Assembly (NCBI RefSeq): GCF_024508335.1
Contig: NZ_CP101988.1
Coordinates: 1,798,001-1,862,000, forward strand
Direction: 5' to 3'
DNA length: 64,000 bases
Origin: Cellulomonas chengniuliangii
Lineage (GTDB): Bacteria; Actinomycetota; Actinomycetes; Actinomycetales; Cellulomonadaceae
Part shown: in pieces, positions 3,629-46,501 of the stretch
Layout of the letters: each line of letters opens with the position of its first letter
Position numbering within the stretch: the stretch's first letter is position 1
Made by a program: the position numbers and the translations under genes
Notes under the pieces: model-generated
Told to the model about the DNA's origin: nothing
Seen by the model: the letters and a program-made list of their open reading frames with translations, nothing else
Database searches by the model: none

Positions 3629-4141
3629 TCACCGGCCCTCCGCGCCCGGCTCCGGACCCGTGTCGAAGTCCTCCGGAGTCACCTGCTCGAGGAACTCGCG
3701 GAACTTCTCGACCTCTTGCTCGGCGGGGCCGTTCTGCGCCTCGACGCCGGCGATCGCCACCACCTCGGCGGAGCACAGCACCGGGCACCCCACCCGTACC
3801 GCGACGGCGATGGCGTCGGACGCTCGGGAGTCCACCCGGCCGCCCGATCCCAGGACCAGCGCCGCGTGGAACACCCCGTGCTCCAGGCTGGTGATCTCCA
3901 CCCGCCGCAGGGTCGCGCCCACTGCGGTGATGACATCGCACAGCAGGTCGTGCGTCATCGGCCTGCGAGGCACGATGCCCGCCTGCGCGGAGGCGATCGC
4001 GCTGCCCTCGCTGGGGCCGATCACGATGGGCACGAAGAGCTCAGAGGCTGGGTCCAGCAGCAGCACGACGATCTCCTCGTCGACCATGTGCTGCCGCACC
4101 CCGACCACCTCGACCGGAACCAGCTCTTCGTCCTCGCCCAC
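3629..4141 (-). CDS. Bifunctional nuclease family protein (DUF151)
   Basis: 170 residues from GTG 4141. The core shows the DUF151 pattern: VVLLLDPASELFVPIVIG, then GPSEGSAIA, the helix THDLLCDVITAVGATLRRVEI, and the C-terminal RVDSRASDAIAVAVRVGCPV motif. Members are homologous to plant and mycobacterial bifunctional nucleases (Rv1829 type); activity here is inferred. It lies between the two MerR genes of the conserved actinobacterial cluster. About 140 bases separate its end from the next MerR start, so that last gene may have its own promoter. Confidence 0.88.
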   Translation of the reverse strand: MGEDEELVPVEVVGVRQHMVDEEIVVLLLDPASELFVPIVIGPSEGSAIASAQAGIVPRRPMTHDLLCDVITAVGATLRRVEITSLEHGVFHAALVLGSGGRVDSRASDAIAVAVRVGCPVLCSAEVVAIAGVEAQNGPAEQEVEKFREFLEQVTPEDFDTGPEPGAEGR

Positions 4142-4218
4142 GTGACCACGCTACGACGGGCGCGCGCGCTCGGCTTCGCGAGAATGCCGCCGTGTGACGG
4201 CTGCGGAGTACGTCGAGG

Positions 4219-43375: not shown

Positions 43376-44413
43376 CTACAGCAGTGCCCGTCCGGCCTCA
43401 GCCAGGGCTTCGAGGCGGGACAGTGCCCGGTGGTACTTCTTGCGGTACCCGCCGGCCAGCATCTCGGCGGTGAACAGCCGTTCGGGGCCGCCTCCGCCCA
43501 GCAGCACCGGCACGTCCCGGTCGTAGAGGCGGTCCACGAGGACCACAAGGCGCAGGGCGACGTCCTGCGCCTCGACCGGGCCGACGCCGGTCACGGCGAC
43601 CAGGCGCACGCCGTCGAGCAGGGCGCCGTAGCGGCTGGGGTGCACGGTGGCCAGGTGCGCCACCAGGTCGGCCAGGGGGTCGATCGTCGCGCCCGGCACC
43701 GTGGCGGCGGCGGCCCGCACGGCGTCGTCCTCCAGGCTCGGCGCGTCGGTCGTGAGGGCGCGGTGGCGGTAGTCCTCCCCGTCGACCCGCACCACCTCGA
43801 AGCGGTCCGAGAGCGCCTGGATCTCGCGGAGGAAGTCCTCGGCCGCGAAGCGCCCCTCCCCGAGCGAGCCGGGCAGCGTGTTGGACGTCGCGGCCAGCGC
43901 GACCCCGCGGTCGGCGAGCTCCCGCAGCAGGCGCGCCATCAGCACCGTGTCGCCCGGGTCGTCGAGCTCGAACTCGTCGATGCACACCAGGGCCCGCCCG
44001 GCGAGCGCCTCGACGGTGGGCAGGAATCCGAGGGCCCCCACCAGGTTCGTGTACTCGACGAACGTGCCGTAGGCGGCGCCCTCTCCCACCGCGTGCGCGA
44101 GCGAGGCGAGCAGGTGCGTCTTGCCGACGCCGAAGCCACCGTCGAGGTAGACCGCGGGCGGCGGCGATGCGCGGCGACGCCGCCACCACGAGCCGCTCCG
44201 TTGTGCGCCTGTCAGCTCGCCGGCGACTCCCCGGAGCCGGTCTAGCGCTGCCTGCTGGCTGGGGTGCGAGGAGTCGGGCCGGTACGTGTCGAACGACTCG
44301 TCCGCGAAGTGGCGCGGGGGCACGAGCTCGGCCAGGAGGCGCTCGGCGGGGACGTGGGGCCGGCGCGCCGTGAGGCTCGCGGGGTGGGCGGGCGCGGCGT
44401 CCGTCGATGTCAC
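43376..44413 (-). CDS. zapE: ZapE/AFG1-like ATPase
   Basis: 345 residues from GTG 44413 (the frame is open further upstream without similarity). AAA+ type ATPase linked to cell division in proteobacteria and to mitochondrial AFG1. Motifs: FDTYRPDSSHPSQQAALDRL, Walker A YLDGGFGVGKTHLLASLAH, TFVEYTNLVGALG, Walker B ALVCIDEFELDDPGDTVLMA, LLRELADRGVALAATSNTLP, FDRFEVVRVDG-type segment as DRFEVVRVDGEDYRHR. Core gene bordering the right edge of the decayed island. Confidence 0.88.
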   Translation of the reverse strand: MTSTDAAPAHPASLTARRPHVPAERLLAELVPPRHFADESFDTYRPDSSHPSQQAALDRLRGVAGELTGAQRSGSWWRRRRASPPPAVYLDGGFGVGKTHLLASLAHAVGEGAAYGTFVEYTNLVGALGFLPTVEALAGRALVCIDEFELDDPGDTVLMARLLRELADRGVALAATSNTLPGSLGEGRFAAEDFLREIQALSDRFEVVRVDGEDYRHRALTTDAPSLEDDAVRAAAATVPGATIDPLADLVAHLATVHPSRYGALLDGVRLVAVTGVGPVEAQDVALRLVVLVDRLYDRDVPVLLGGGGPERLFTAEMLAGGYRKKYHRALSRLEALAEAGRALL

Positions 44414-44630
44414 GACGCCTGAGCCTACGGGGGCGGGACGGCCTGCCCGAACGGCGCCCACCGGCCCGCCGGGCGGGGCCGCCCGTGTCCCAGTCACCGG
44501 GCACTCGGTCTCACCATGCGGTCCGGGGCTGTCGTCACCCGTTCGGACCTGTCAGCCTCAGATGGTGCATTCGTCCCAGTGTGTCCGTGGCTGCCGCCCC
44601 CGTGCGGCGGCCGCCAGCGCGCCCGTCGGC

Positions 44631-44741
44631 ATGACGGCGCACGCGGACACCCGGGCCGCGGGGCAGCGCCAGGCGGCGCCCTGTCCTCGCCGCCACTGTC
44701 GTGGCCTGTGCTGTCCGGGCGCCTGCCCCCGGAGCGCGTGA
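44631..44741 (+). CDS. Cysteine-rich leader peptide upstream of the sulfur operon
   Basis: 36 codons from ATG 44631 (an in-frame ATG at 44562 would give 59 residues with two more Cys). The last 19 codons contain five Cys: residues 18-32 read CPRRHCRGLCCPGAC, then PRSA and TGA at 44739-44741. Cys is otherwise rare in this proteome. The ORF ends 101 bases before the sulfite reductase ATG. In mycobacteria, short Cys-rich leader ORFs control downstream sulfur genes according to cysteine supply; this ORF has the same placement and composition. No Shine-Dalgarno precedes it, which fits a leaderless start, but no transcription start is known. Confidence 0.6.
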   Translation: MTAHADTRAAGQRQAAPCPRRHCRGLCCPGACPRSA

Positions 44742-44842
44742 CCGCTCGTCCCTGCTGATGGGCGCGCGGCGCCCGCCACCGCCACCCCATGTGGGTGGCC
44801 GGACGAGCCTGCACGTCCCCGAGACACCGGAGGAGGCGCCTG
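44717..44842 (+). promoter_or_regulatory. Possible attenuator between the Cys-rich ORF and sulfite reductase
   Basis: Three mutually pairable GGCGCC elements: in the last Cys codons of the leader (GGGCGCC, 44717-44723), in the spacer (GGCGCCC, 44768-44774, exact complement of the first) and within the ribosome site of the reductase (GGAGGAGGCGCC, 44829-44840). Pairing one versus the other would expose or hide the Shine-Dalgarno. GGCGCC is common in such GC-rich DNA, so the structure is a hypothesis. 44414-44630 shows nothing else assignable and probably includes the operon promoter. Confidence 0.4.
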
Positions 44843-46501
44843 ATGGCGCACACACGGATCGCCCCGCCGGCGGCCAAAGACGAAGGCCAGTGGGCCTTCG
44901 GCTCACGCGAGCCGCAGAACGCCAACGAGCGGTTCAAGCAGGAGGACGACGGGCTCAACGTGCGCCACCGCATCGAGCACGTCTACTCCCAGCAGGGCTT
45001 CGCCTCGATCGCCCCCGACGACCTGCGCGGCCGGATGCGCTGGTGGGGCCTGTACACCCAGCGCCGCCCCGGCATCGACGGCGGCCGCACCGCCACCATG
45101 GAGCCGCACGAGCTCGACGACGAGTACTTCATGCTGCGTGTGCGGTGCGACGGCGGCTCCCTGAGCACCGACCAGCTGCGGACGATCGCCGAGGTCTCCG
45201 TCGAGCACGCGCGCGGCACCGCCGACATCACCGACCGGCAGAACCTGCAGCTCCACTGGGTGCGCATCGAGGACGTCCCGGAGATCTGGCGCCGGCTCGA
45301 GGCCGTGGGCCTGACCACCCAGGAGGCCTGTGGCGACACCCCGCGCGTGATCCTCGGCTCCCCCGTGGCCGGCGTCGCGGCGGACGAGATCATCGACGGC
45401 ACCCCGGCCGTCGCGGCCGTCAGCGCCCGCTTCGTGGGCAACCCCGACTTCTCGAACCTGCCGCGCAAGTTCAAGACGGCCATCAGCGGCTCCCCGCACC
45501 AGGACGTCGCCCACGAGATCAACGACGTCTCGTTCATCGGTGTGCTCCACCCCGAGCTCGGCCCCGGTTTCGACCTGTGGGTGGGCGGCGGACTGTCGAC
45601 CAACCCGCGGCTGGCCGTCCGCCTGGGGGCCTTCGTCACCCTCGAGCAGGTCCCCGACGTGTGGGCCGGCGTCGCGGGGATCTTCCGGGACTACGGCTAC
45701 CGCCGGCTGCGCTCCCGCGCCCGGTTGAAGTTCCTCGTCGCCGACTGGGGGCCCGAGCTCTTCCGCGAGGTGCTCGAGGGCGAGTACCTCGGGTTCACCC
45801 TCCCTGACGGCCCCGAGCCTCCCCCGCCGCCGTTCGCCCGCCGCGACCACGTGGGCGTCCACCCGCAGAAGGACGGCCGGTTCTACGTCGGAGCCGCGCC
45901 GCTGGTCGGCCGGACGCCAGGAGCGGTCCTCGCCGCCCTCGCCGACCTCGCGGAGGCCTGCGGGTCCCGCCGGGTCCGCCTGACCGCCGAGCAGAAGATC
46001 GTCGTCCTCGACGTCCCCGCCGACCAGGTCGACGCGCTCGTCGACGGCCTGGAGGCCCTCGGCCTGGCGGTGCGCAGTGCGTCCACGTTCCGGCGCGGCA
46101 CCATGGCGTGCACCGGCATCGAGTTCTGCAAGTTGGCGATCGTCGAGACGAAGGCCCGAGGTGCGCAGCTGGTCGCCGAACTGGAGTCCCGCCTGCCGAC
46201 GTTCGACCACCCGCTCACCATCAACCTCAACGGCTGCCCGAACTCCTGCGCCCGCATCCAGGTGGCCGATGTCGGCCTCAAGGGCGCGCTCGCGGGTGGC
46301 GAGGACGGCTACCAGGTGCACCTCGGCGGCGGCCTCGGCCTCACCGGCGGGATCGGCCGCACCCTGCGCGGGCTGCGCGTGCCCGCGGACGACCTGCCCG
46401 ACTACGTGGAACGGGTCGCGCGGCGGTTCGACGCGCAGCGGCACGAGGGCGAGCTGTTCGCGCAGTGGGCCGTGCGCGCCGACGACCAGGACCTCCGATG
46501 A
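44843..46501 (+). CDS. cysI: Ferredoxin-dependent sulfite reductase
   Basis: 552 residues from ATG 44843 with GGAGGAGG upstream. Reduces sulfite to sulfide with six electrons using siroheme and a 4Fe-4S cluster. Two ferredoxin-like and two siroheme-binding halves are visible: LRGRMRWWGLYTQRRPGIDG, DITDRQNLQLHWVRIEDVPE, then the cluster cysteines in TGIEFCKLA (preceded by MAC) and NLNGCPNSCARIQVADVG. Nitrite reductases of the family are similar; adjacency to cysH/D/N decides for sulfite. First main gene of the operon. Confidence 0.93.
   Translation: MAHTRIAPPAAKDEGQWAFGSREPQNANERFKQEDDGLNVRHRIEHVYSQQGFASIAPDDLRGRMRWWGLYTQRRPGIDGGRTATMEPHELDDEYFMLRVRCDGGSLSTDQLRTIAEVSVEHARGTADITDRQNLQLHWVRIEDVPEIWRRLEAVGLTTQEACGDTPRVILGSPVAGVAADEIIDGTPAVAAVSARFVGNPDFSNLPRKFKTAISGSPHQDVAHEINDVSFIGVLHPELGPGFDLWVGGGLSTNPRLAVRLGAFVTLEQVPDVWAGVAGIFRDYGYRRLRSRARLKFLVADWGPELFREVLEGEYLGFTLPDGPEPPPPPFARRDHVGVHPQKDGRFYVGAAPLVGRTPGAVLAALADLAEACGSRRVRLTAEQKIVVLDVPADQVDALVDGLEALGLAVRSASTFRRGTMACTGIEFCKLAIVETKARGAQLVAELESRLPTFDHPLTINLNGCPNSCARIQVADVGLKGALAGGEDGYQVHLGGGLGLTGGIGRTLRGLRVPADDLPDYVERVARRFDAQRHEGELFAQWAVRADDQDLR

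Follow-up and report, generated by a model that had tools for sequence, protein, structure and literature searches.

Polycysteine short ORFs on leaderless mRNAs were reportedly described in mycobacteria, in M. smegmatis, by Canestrari et al. in 2020. Cysteine-responsive leaders of M. smegmatis are also cited in the portions of three papers on which we draw (PMC9031893, PMC13236596, PMC9094748). As far as the excerpt of Seliverstov et al. 2005 (PMC1262725) extends, candidate Cys leaders precede cys operons of Mycobacterium and Propionibacterium acnes and the cbs gene of Bifidobacterium longum. For Streptomyces lividans, the part of a re-annotation available to us gives eight leader peptides, none of which is assigned to cysteine (PMC8079986). 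Among the papers listed by a literature search, which left most subscription papers outside its scope, there was no report of a Cys leader in Cellulomonas, or of one by name.

Here we analyse a Cys-rich leader ORF ahead of the sulfate-assimilation genes of Cellulomonas chengniuliangii, within a stretch of 64,000 nucleotides that we call the window. At a probability of about 75%, we read it as a cysteine-sensing leader peptide of the cysI-headed operon. Set beside the mycobacterial polycysteine ORFs, as these appear in the portions of the papers cited above, it is likewise a short Cys-rich ORF at the head of a cysteine operon, predicted to be leaderless, and one of more than one such ORF per genome. 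The cysI leader differs in its peptide and in its last Cys, which is locked four codons before a TGA stop; the Cellulomonas cysK leader, unlike the leaderless mycobacterial ORFs, has a Shine-Dalgarno (SD)-like sequence and is not predicted to be leaderless. A cysteine response and control of a ribosome site are reported in those portions for mycobacteria; for the Cellulomonas leader both are proposals made from sequence. With the candidates in the excerpted part of Seliverstov et al. 2005 (PMC1262725), it shares runs of Cys codons near the leader stop and the lack of an intrinsic terminator; it differs in coming from other genera, and Cellulomonas offers a large comparative set together with promoter and spacer elements. 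The leader also resembles the candidates of Shell et al. 2015, as given in the part of that paper used here (PMC4633059).

Unlike a classical attenuator, the window spacer has no GC-rich hairpin followed by a T run. A further kind of short leader precedes the homologous gene in Streptomyces and relatives, where we take an RRHVDL core to be its mark; we found this type in 64 of 69 Streptomyces-type loci. Both lie ahead of a homologous cysI, but the RRHVDL type has a fixed core and, in the examples shown, one or two Cys. The core is absent from the window leader and from the 54 script-matched leaders described below.

The leader ORF and its operon

The first large gene of the operon, cysI (44843..46501, plus strand), encodes a member of the nitrite/sulfite reductase family (PF01077; Pfam, 9.6e-59). 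Since no NCBIfam model scores above its cut-off for this product, the name cysI rests on the family and on the operon context. The operon also holds a PAPS reductase gene 3′ of cysI (NF002537, 8.5e-74) and genes for CysD (TIGR02039, 2.4e-137) and CysN (TIGR02034, 2.7e-164), each matching above the model's cut-off, as well as genes for an SsuA-type binding protein, an ABC ATPase and a permease. Ahead of cysI, an SD sequence, GGAGGAGG, can be read at 44829..44836 on the plus strand, and it is conserved in an alignment of 49 loci. Upstream of the leader, a ZapE/AFG1-type ATPase gene, whose longest form starts near 44500, runs on the minus strand, which places the leader in a divergent intergenic region.

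The leader ORF occupies 44565..44741 on the plus strand, with 58 codons and seven Cys, or 59 codons if counted from the ATG at 44562 that directly precedes GTG 44565. The frame stays open upstream as far as 44286. A cluster of Cys near the C-terminus spans 44682..44726; its last Cys codon, a TGC at 44724–44726, stands four codons ahead of the TGA stop at 44739–44741, and 101 bases separate this stop from the cysI ATG at 44843. An earlier interpretation, made from the letters of the window and hereafter the sequence-only reading, had described a 36-codon version beginning at ATG 44631 (44631..44741, plus strand), with five Cys in its last 19 codons, a CC pair and a stop 101 bases before the reductase gene, followed by the genes for cysteine-directed sulfate reduction. 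All of these features of the ORF are confirmed, the Cys falling at codons 18, 23, 27, 28 and 32 of that version, and the profile matches identify the reductase-family gene, PAPS reductase, CysD and CysN downstream. Its start codon was not supported. The two nearest relatives (L002 and L003) have no in-frame start at ATG 44631, and the aligned loci have RTG at the position of 44565; GTG 44565, the start common to relatives, is therefore probably the leader start on this comparison, and ATG 44631 probably the wrong one. In frame, the window leader exceeds those of L002 and L003 by 25 codons (58 against 33), and the extra part, at 44586–44690 relative to these two loci, contains ATG 44631.

Among window ORFs of at least 20 codons, five or more Cys in the last 25 codons occur in 1 of 253 on the plus strand and 1 of 277 on the minus strand. 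The minus-strand case is the only one besides the leader: it lies at 4021–4149 and has five Cys in that stretch, with a CCC run among them. No NCBIfam or Pfam model matches the window leader peptides, and the ORFs may for this reason escape annotation pipelines. An Rfam scan of 43500–45500 gave mir-375 as its sole match up to an E value of 10, on the other strand and below the gathering score.

Two promoter-like elements stand at constant distances from the start codon in an ungapped alignment of 17 Cellulomonas loci. Box A (TCTCACCATGCGG, 44509..44521, plus strand) is a candidate regulator site 56 bases upstream of the predicted start, with the consensus TCTCAtcATsCGGa at −56 to −43 relative to RTG. 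An extended −10-like element (TGTCAGCCT, 44550..44558, plus strand) follows, with the consensus TGtCArCCT at −15 to −7; A at −11, T at −7 and the RTG itself are identical in 17 of 17 loci. The RTG anchor of this alignment was picked by eye and a later script scored the same features, so it is the constant spacing, not the number of matches, that counts as evidence. From the distance between the −10-like element and the RTG, transcription is predicted to start at the start codon, and the leader mRNA is thus probably leaderless, beginning at GTG 44565. The exact sequence TCTCANNATSCGG has one site in the organism's own genome, at box A, and seven other sites in relatives precede no Cys-rich ORF at a matching distance; box A was accordingly rejected as the signature of a wide regulon. 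Near base 1500 of two relatives, L126 and L128, a box A-like site that is conserved between them lies beside an alcohol-dehydrogenase-like frame, without a Cys leader.

Conservation across the family

A search for cysI over 221 family genomes gave matches in 159 at E ≤ 1e-200. The 57 best matches, all at 77% identity or above and counting the window itself, form the close set. Upstream sequence sufficed in 56 of them, which were examined; the contig of the other (G093, L159) was too short. A Cys-rich ORF lies ahead of cysI in all 56, and the Cys-rich leader seen in the window is thus kept in its close relatives. By script, the leader was found with box A and the −10 element at fixed spacing in 54 of them; L152 and L164 make up the rest and carry these elements too, with a single additional base.

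Each of the 54 script-matched leaders contains 5 to 8 Cys, and the residues between them are highly variable. All 54 end in a TGA stop with the last Cys codon exactly four codons ahead of it, and their spacers to cysI measure 96–128 nt. Cys codons are concentrated in the leader frame (348 of 1638 codons, compared with 125 and 47 Cys codons in the other two forward frames), and another forward frame is open across the span in 53 of the 54. Between related leaders, 266 of 527 gaps have a length divisible by three, whereas the spacer has 149 such gaps out of 1542 (counted over 314 pairs, which are non-independent). TGT is strongly over-represented, above all at the last Cys: it makes up 154 of the 348 Cys codons in leaders versus 2 of 211 in cysI genes (loci longer than 4 kb), a bias for which Fisher values ignore the relatedness of the loci. 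Among the remaining leader codons with T or C in third position, 48 of 686 have T. In 50 of the 54 leaders TGT is the last Cys codon, and in 51 the Cys codon before it is TGC. The window leader, with TGC as its last Cys codon, is an exception to this preference. Either codon choice or RNA pairing could explain the TGT bias.

Ten named Cellulomonas loci carry the same kind of Cys-rich ORF; they are excluded from the counts, and at least four of them possibly overlap counted loci. Cellulomonas cellasea ET82 is the nearest named relative among those listed, with 91% CysI identity.

The distant set consists of 39 loci (L009–L030 and L181–L197). At 23 of these, in other genera of the family, the best match is an ORF that has three or more Cys among its final 25 codons and follows a loosely defined −10 element; at four it is an RRHVDL-type leader. 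The script's own tally of Cys leaders is 24, one RRHVDL locus being counted also via an inner start. It found neither type of leader in 12 of the 39; the sequence of L184 is incomplete, and L012 has a leader just beyond the script's limits. Within the family, the leaders of L181 and L182 (72% CysI identity) are RRHVDL-like, contain an additional CC and resemble the Streptomyces type.

Reading by eye the 12 distant loci shown, we found a related box, CC(A/G)..AT.(C/T)GGAC, ahead of the leader start in 11. It stands about 56 bases before the Cys leader start in L014, L016, L018–L020, L023–L026, L028 and L029, which belong to other genera. In some loci it takes the form of a dyad, TCCACTATGTGGA, a candidate regulator site. 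Tried in Streptomyces-type loci, the dyad form showed no enrichment (28 of 69 loci against 112 of 345 shuffled) and was dropped.

Spacer RNA and the proposed mechanism

The 101-base spacer of the window has no two adjacent T, as read from the sequence, and with no T run it contains no intrinsic terminator. In its minimum-energy fold (z −2.55, a stability equalled by 3 of 200 shuffles), a stem at 44744..44808 on the plus strand pairs GCTCGTCC (44744–44751) with GGACGAGC (44801–44808) around two inner hairpins. The element GGGCGCGYGGUC is found in the spacers of most of 49 non-redundant loci; the form in the window is GGGCGCGCGGCGCCC (44760..44774, plus strand). Duplexes between this element and the 3′ spacer arm have native means of −29.8 (clade A, 29 loci), −31.5 (clade B, 14 loci) and −31.0 kcal/mol (clade P, 2 loci), compared with −21.8 to −27.8 kcal/mol for partners from other clades and −16.5 to −22.1 kcal/mol for shuffled partners. 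Clade O, which holds the window (3 loci), gave no such compensation (−26.1 native against −28.6 and −23.7 swapped), and the single locus Q was mixed (−28.7 native against −21.4 and −36.7 swapped). When all 49 loci were pooled without clades, the element and the 3′ arm were the only pair that clearly beat swapped partners (0.60 of swaps).

Other pairings fared less well. For the element and the cysI coding start, the native pairing outdid shuffled partners (−21.8 against −16.0) yet had no edge over swapped ones (0.51). An RNAalifold consensus of the 49 loci, weak (−10.19 kcal/mol) and having a double change in 3 of 20 pairs, pointed to pairing between the last Cys codons and the 3′ spacer arm; when scored, that pairing differed from shuffled controls by no more than about 1 SD in clades A and B, and in O, P and Q it had no advantage over them. 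Both pairings and the consensus were rejected. Per-clade consensus folds contain a helix between the stop-codon region and GGGCGCGYGGUC, with zero double changes. Because the clade B fold holds this helix and that with the 3′ arm together, on different halves of the element, the two are only partly exclusive.

We modelled the cost of opening the region from the cysI SD to the AUG in four states: no ribosome, or one placed at the last Cys, the third-last Cys or the stop. Across the 49 sequences the model gave no consistent switch: the cost with no ribosome minus that with one at the last Cys averages 0.04 kcal/mol, exceeding 0.5 in 15 sequences and falling below −0.5 in 16. For the window, opening costs 16.3 without a ribosome, 14.7 with one at the stop, 15.7 at the third-last Cys and 17.8 at the last Cys, which is the costliest state; for L002 and L003, a ribosome at any of the three places cuts the cost by 6 to 9. 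The sequence-only reading had suggested that GGCGCC elements pair alternatively. GGCGCC is present in the leader, in the spacer and beside the cysI SD, but just three of the 49 aligned loci, L001–L003 (the window with its two closest relatives), have the spacer element. With this restriction and the lack of a consistent change in the folding model, we rejected the switch. Aligning the region upstream of cysI, as had been proposed, gave a Cys-rich leader ORF in every close locus examined and stem compensation in some clades, though not in the clade of the window. What stands of the leader-peptide reading is thus the ORF, the Cys frame, the position of the last Cys, the promoter-like elements and the cysK counterpart; the start codon and the GGCGCC pairing found no support.

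On these sequence comparisons, ribosomes that translate the leader probably sense cysteine shortage. A leaderless mRNA would begin at GTG 44565 and, being leaderless, would take up ribosomes at its 5′ end, and these would move on through the Cys-rich leader as they translate it. In a shortage of charged tRNA-Cys, they would pause in the Cys codons near the leader end, and the paused ribosomes would raise expression of cysI and the genes that follow. The Cys leader of cysK-cysE, an independent one, would answer the same signal. Three parts of this reading are inferred: where transcription starts, that ribosomes stall, and which way expression responds. The step from stalling to cysI might run through folding around the cysI ribosome site, transcription termination or coupling; by analogy with mycobacteria, we lean towards translational control.

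A more specific version is possible, though we hold it tentatively and would sooner doubt than accept it: cysteine synthesis may be run by a ribosome-directed regulon of at least two leaders, in which the cysI leader is a position-locked sensor whose ribosome footprint sets the spacer fold. With a ribosome waiting at the last Cys codon, UGU in most relatives, the stop-codon region would stay exposed and could pair with GGGCGCGYGGUC; a ribosome at the stop would cover that region. Against this version, the helices are only partly exclusive in one clade, and the element is changed in the clade of the window.

The same leader might instead have a transcriptional output, its translation deciding whether Rho terminates before cysI and the C-rich stretch after the stop serving as the loading site. 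Over the 54 loci the 22 bases after the leader stop are 64% C and 19% G, the window spacer has no T run and no intrinsic terminator, and Rho is proposed for mycobacterial cys leaders in the excerpted part of Seliverstov et al. 2005 (PMC1262725). In the window, however, the post-stop stretch is just 41% C and 32% G, and the mycobacterial case is called translation attenuation in the part of PMC13236596 drawn on here; we judge Rho control rather unlikely, and translational control remains our preferred route. The signal, too, could be of another kind, with the nascent Cys-rich peptide sensed (metal, redox or arrest) in place of the supply of charged tRNA-Cys. The many closely spaced Cys would suit such a peptide, as would the fixed amino-acid core in 64 of 69 loci of the Streptomyces leader before the homologous gene. 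The 54 Cellulomonas-type leaders nevertheless vary between their Cys, yet keep 5 to 8 of them, and since the residues between vary while the Cys are kept, codon-based sensing fits better and peptide sensing seems improbable.

It is more improbable still that the Cys are incidental, in an ORF whose whole role is to supply cysI with ribosomes, or one that arises simply from GC-rich DNA. Open frames do abound in such DNA (the 253 and 277 ORFs of at least 20 codons counted above), and a second forward frame is open in 53 of the 54 leaders, but the ORF is kept in 56 of 56 loci with its Cys mostly confined to one frame (348 against 125 and 47), the last Cys is locked in position, and a similar leader precedes cysK. 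Codon-based sensing by leader-translating ribosomes would extend to Cellulomonas and its family the kind of ribosome-based sensing of cysteine that the passages of the citing papers used here report for mycobacteria. The leader set amounts to many natural variants, with a locked last Cys, a UGU preference, promoter-like elements and partly compensating helices, so that the passing of stalling to the next gene without a terminator can be tested by comparison or with reporters.

A second leader ahead of cysK and cysE

We searched the organism's own genome and four congeners for cysK (TIGR01136) and scanned the upstream regions. A Cys-rich ORF, with 3 to 6 Cys in its last 25 codons, precedes the above-cut-off cysK in 5 of 5 genomes, and cysE directly follows cysK in all five. 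Several Cys leaders per genome are thus found, cysI and cysK-cysE both being led in each of the five. The next group of cysK matches (L203–L207) has 3-Cys ORFs in two of five, at unrelated places. In the organism's own genome, where the cysK match runs from 2314179 (L200, G000:C1), the leader reads MRTRTHATSARPVVSGSTPRRHDAVCCRTLCCR. An SD-like sequence precedes the start of the cysK leader, which is for this reason not predicted to be leaderless. In all five genomes (L198–L202), the leader stop is followed by AGCGCTGGC...GCCAGCGCT, a 9-base inverted repeat.
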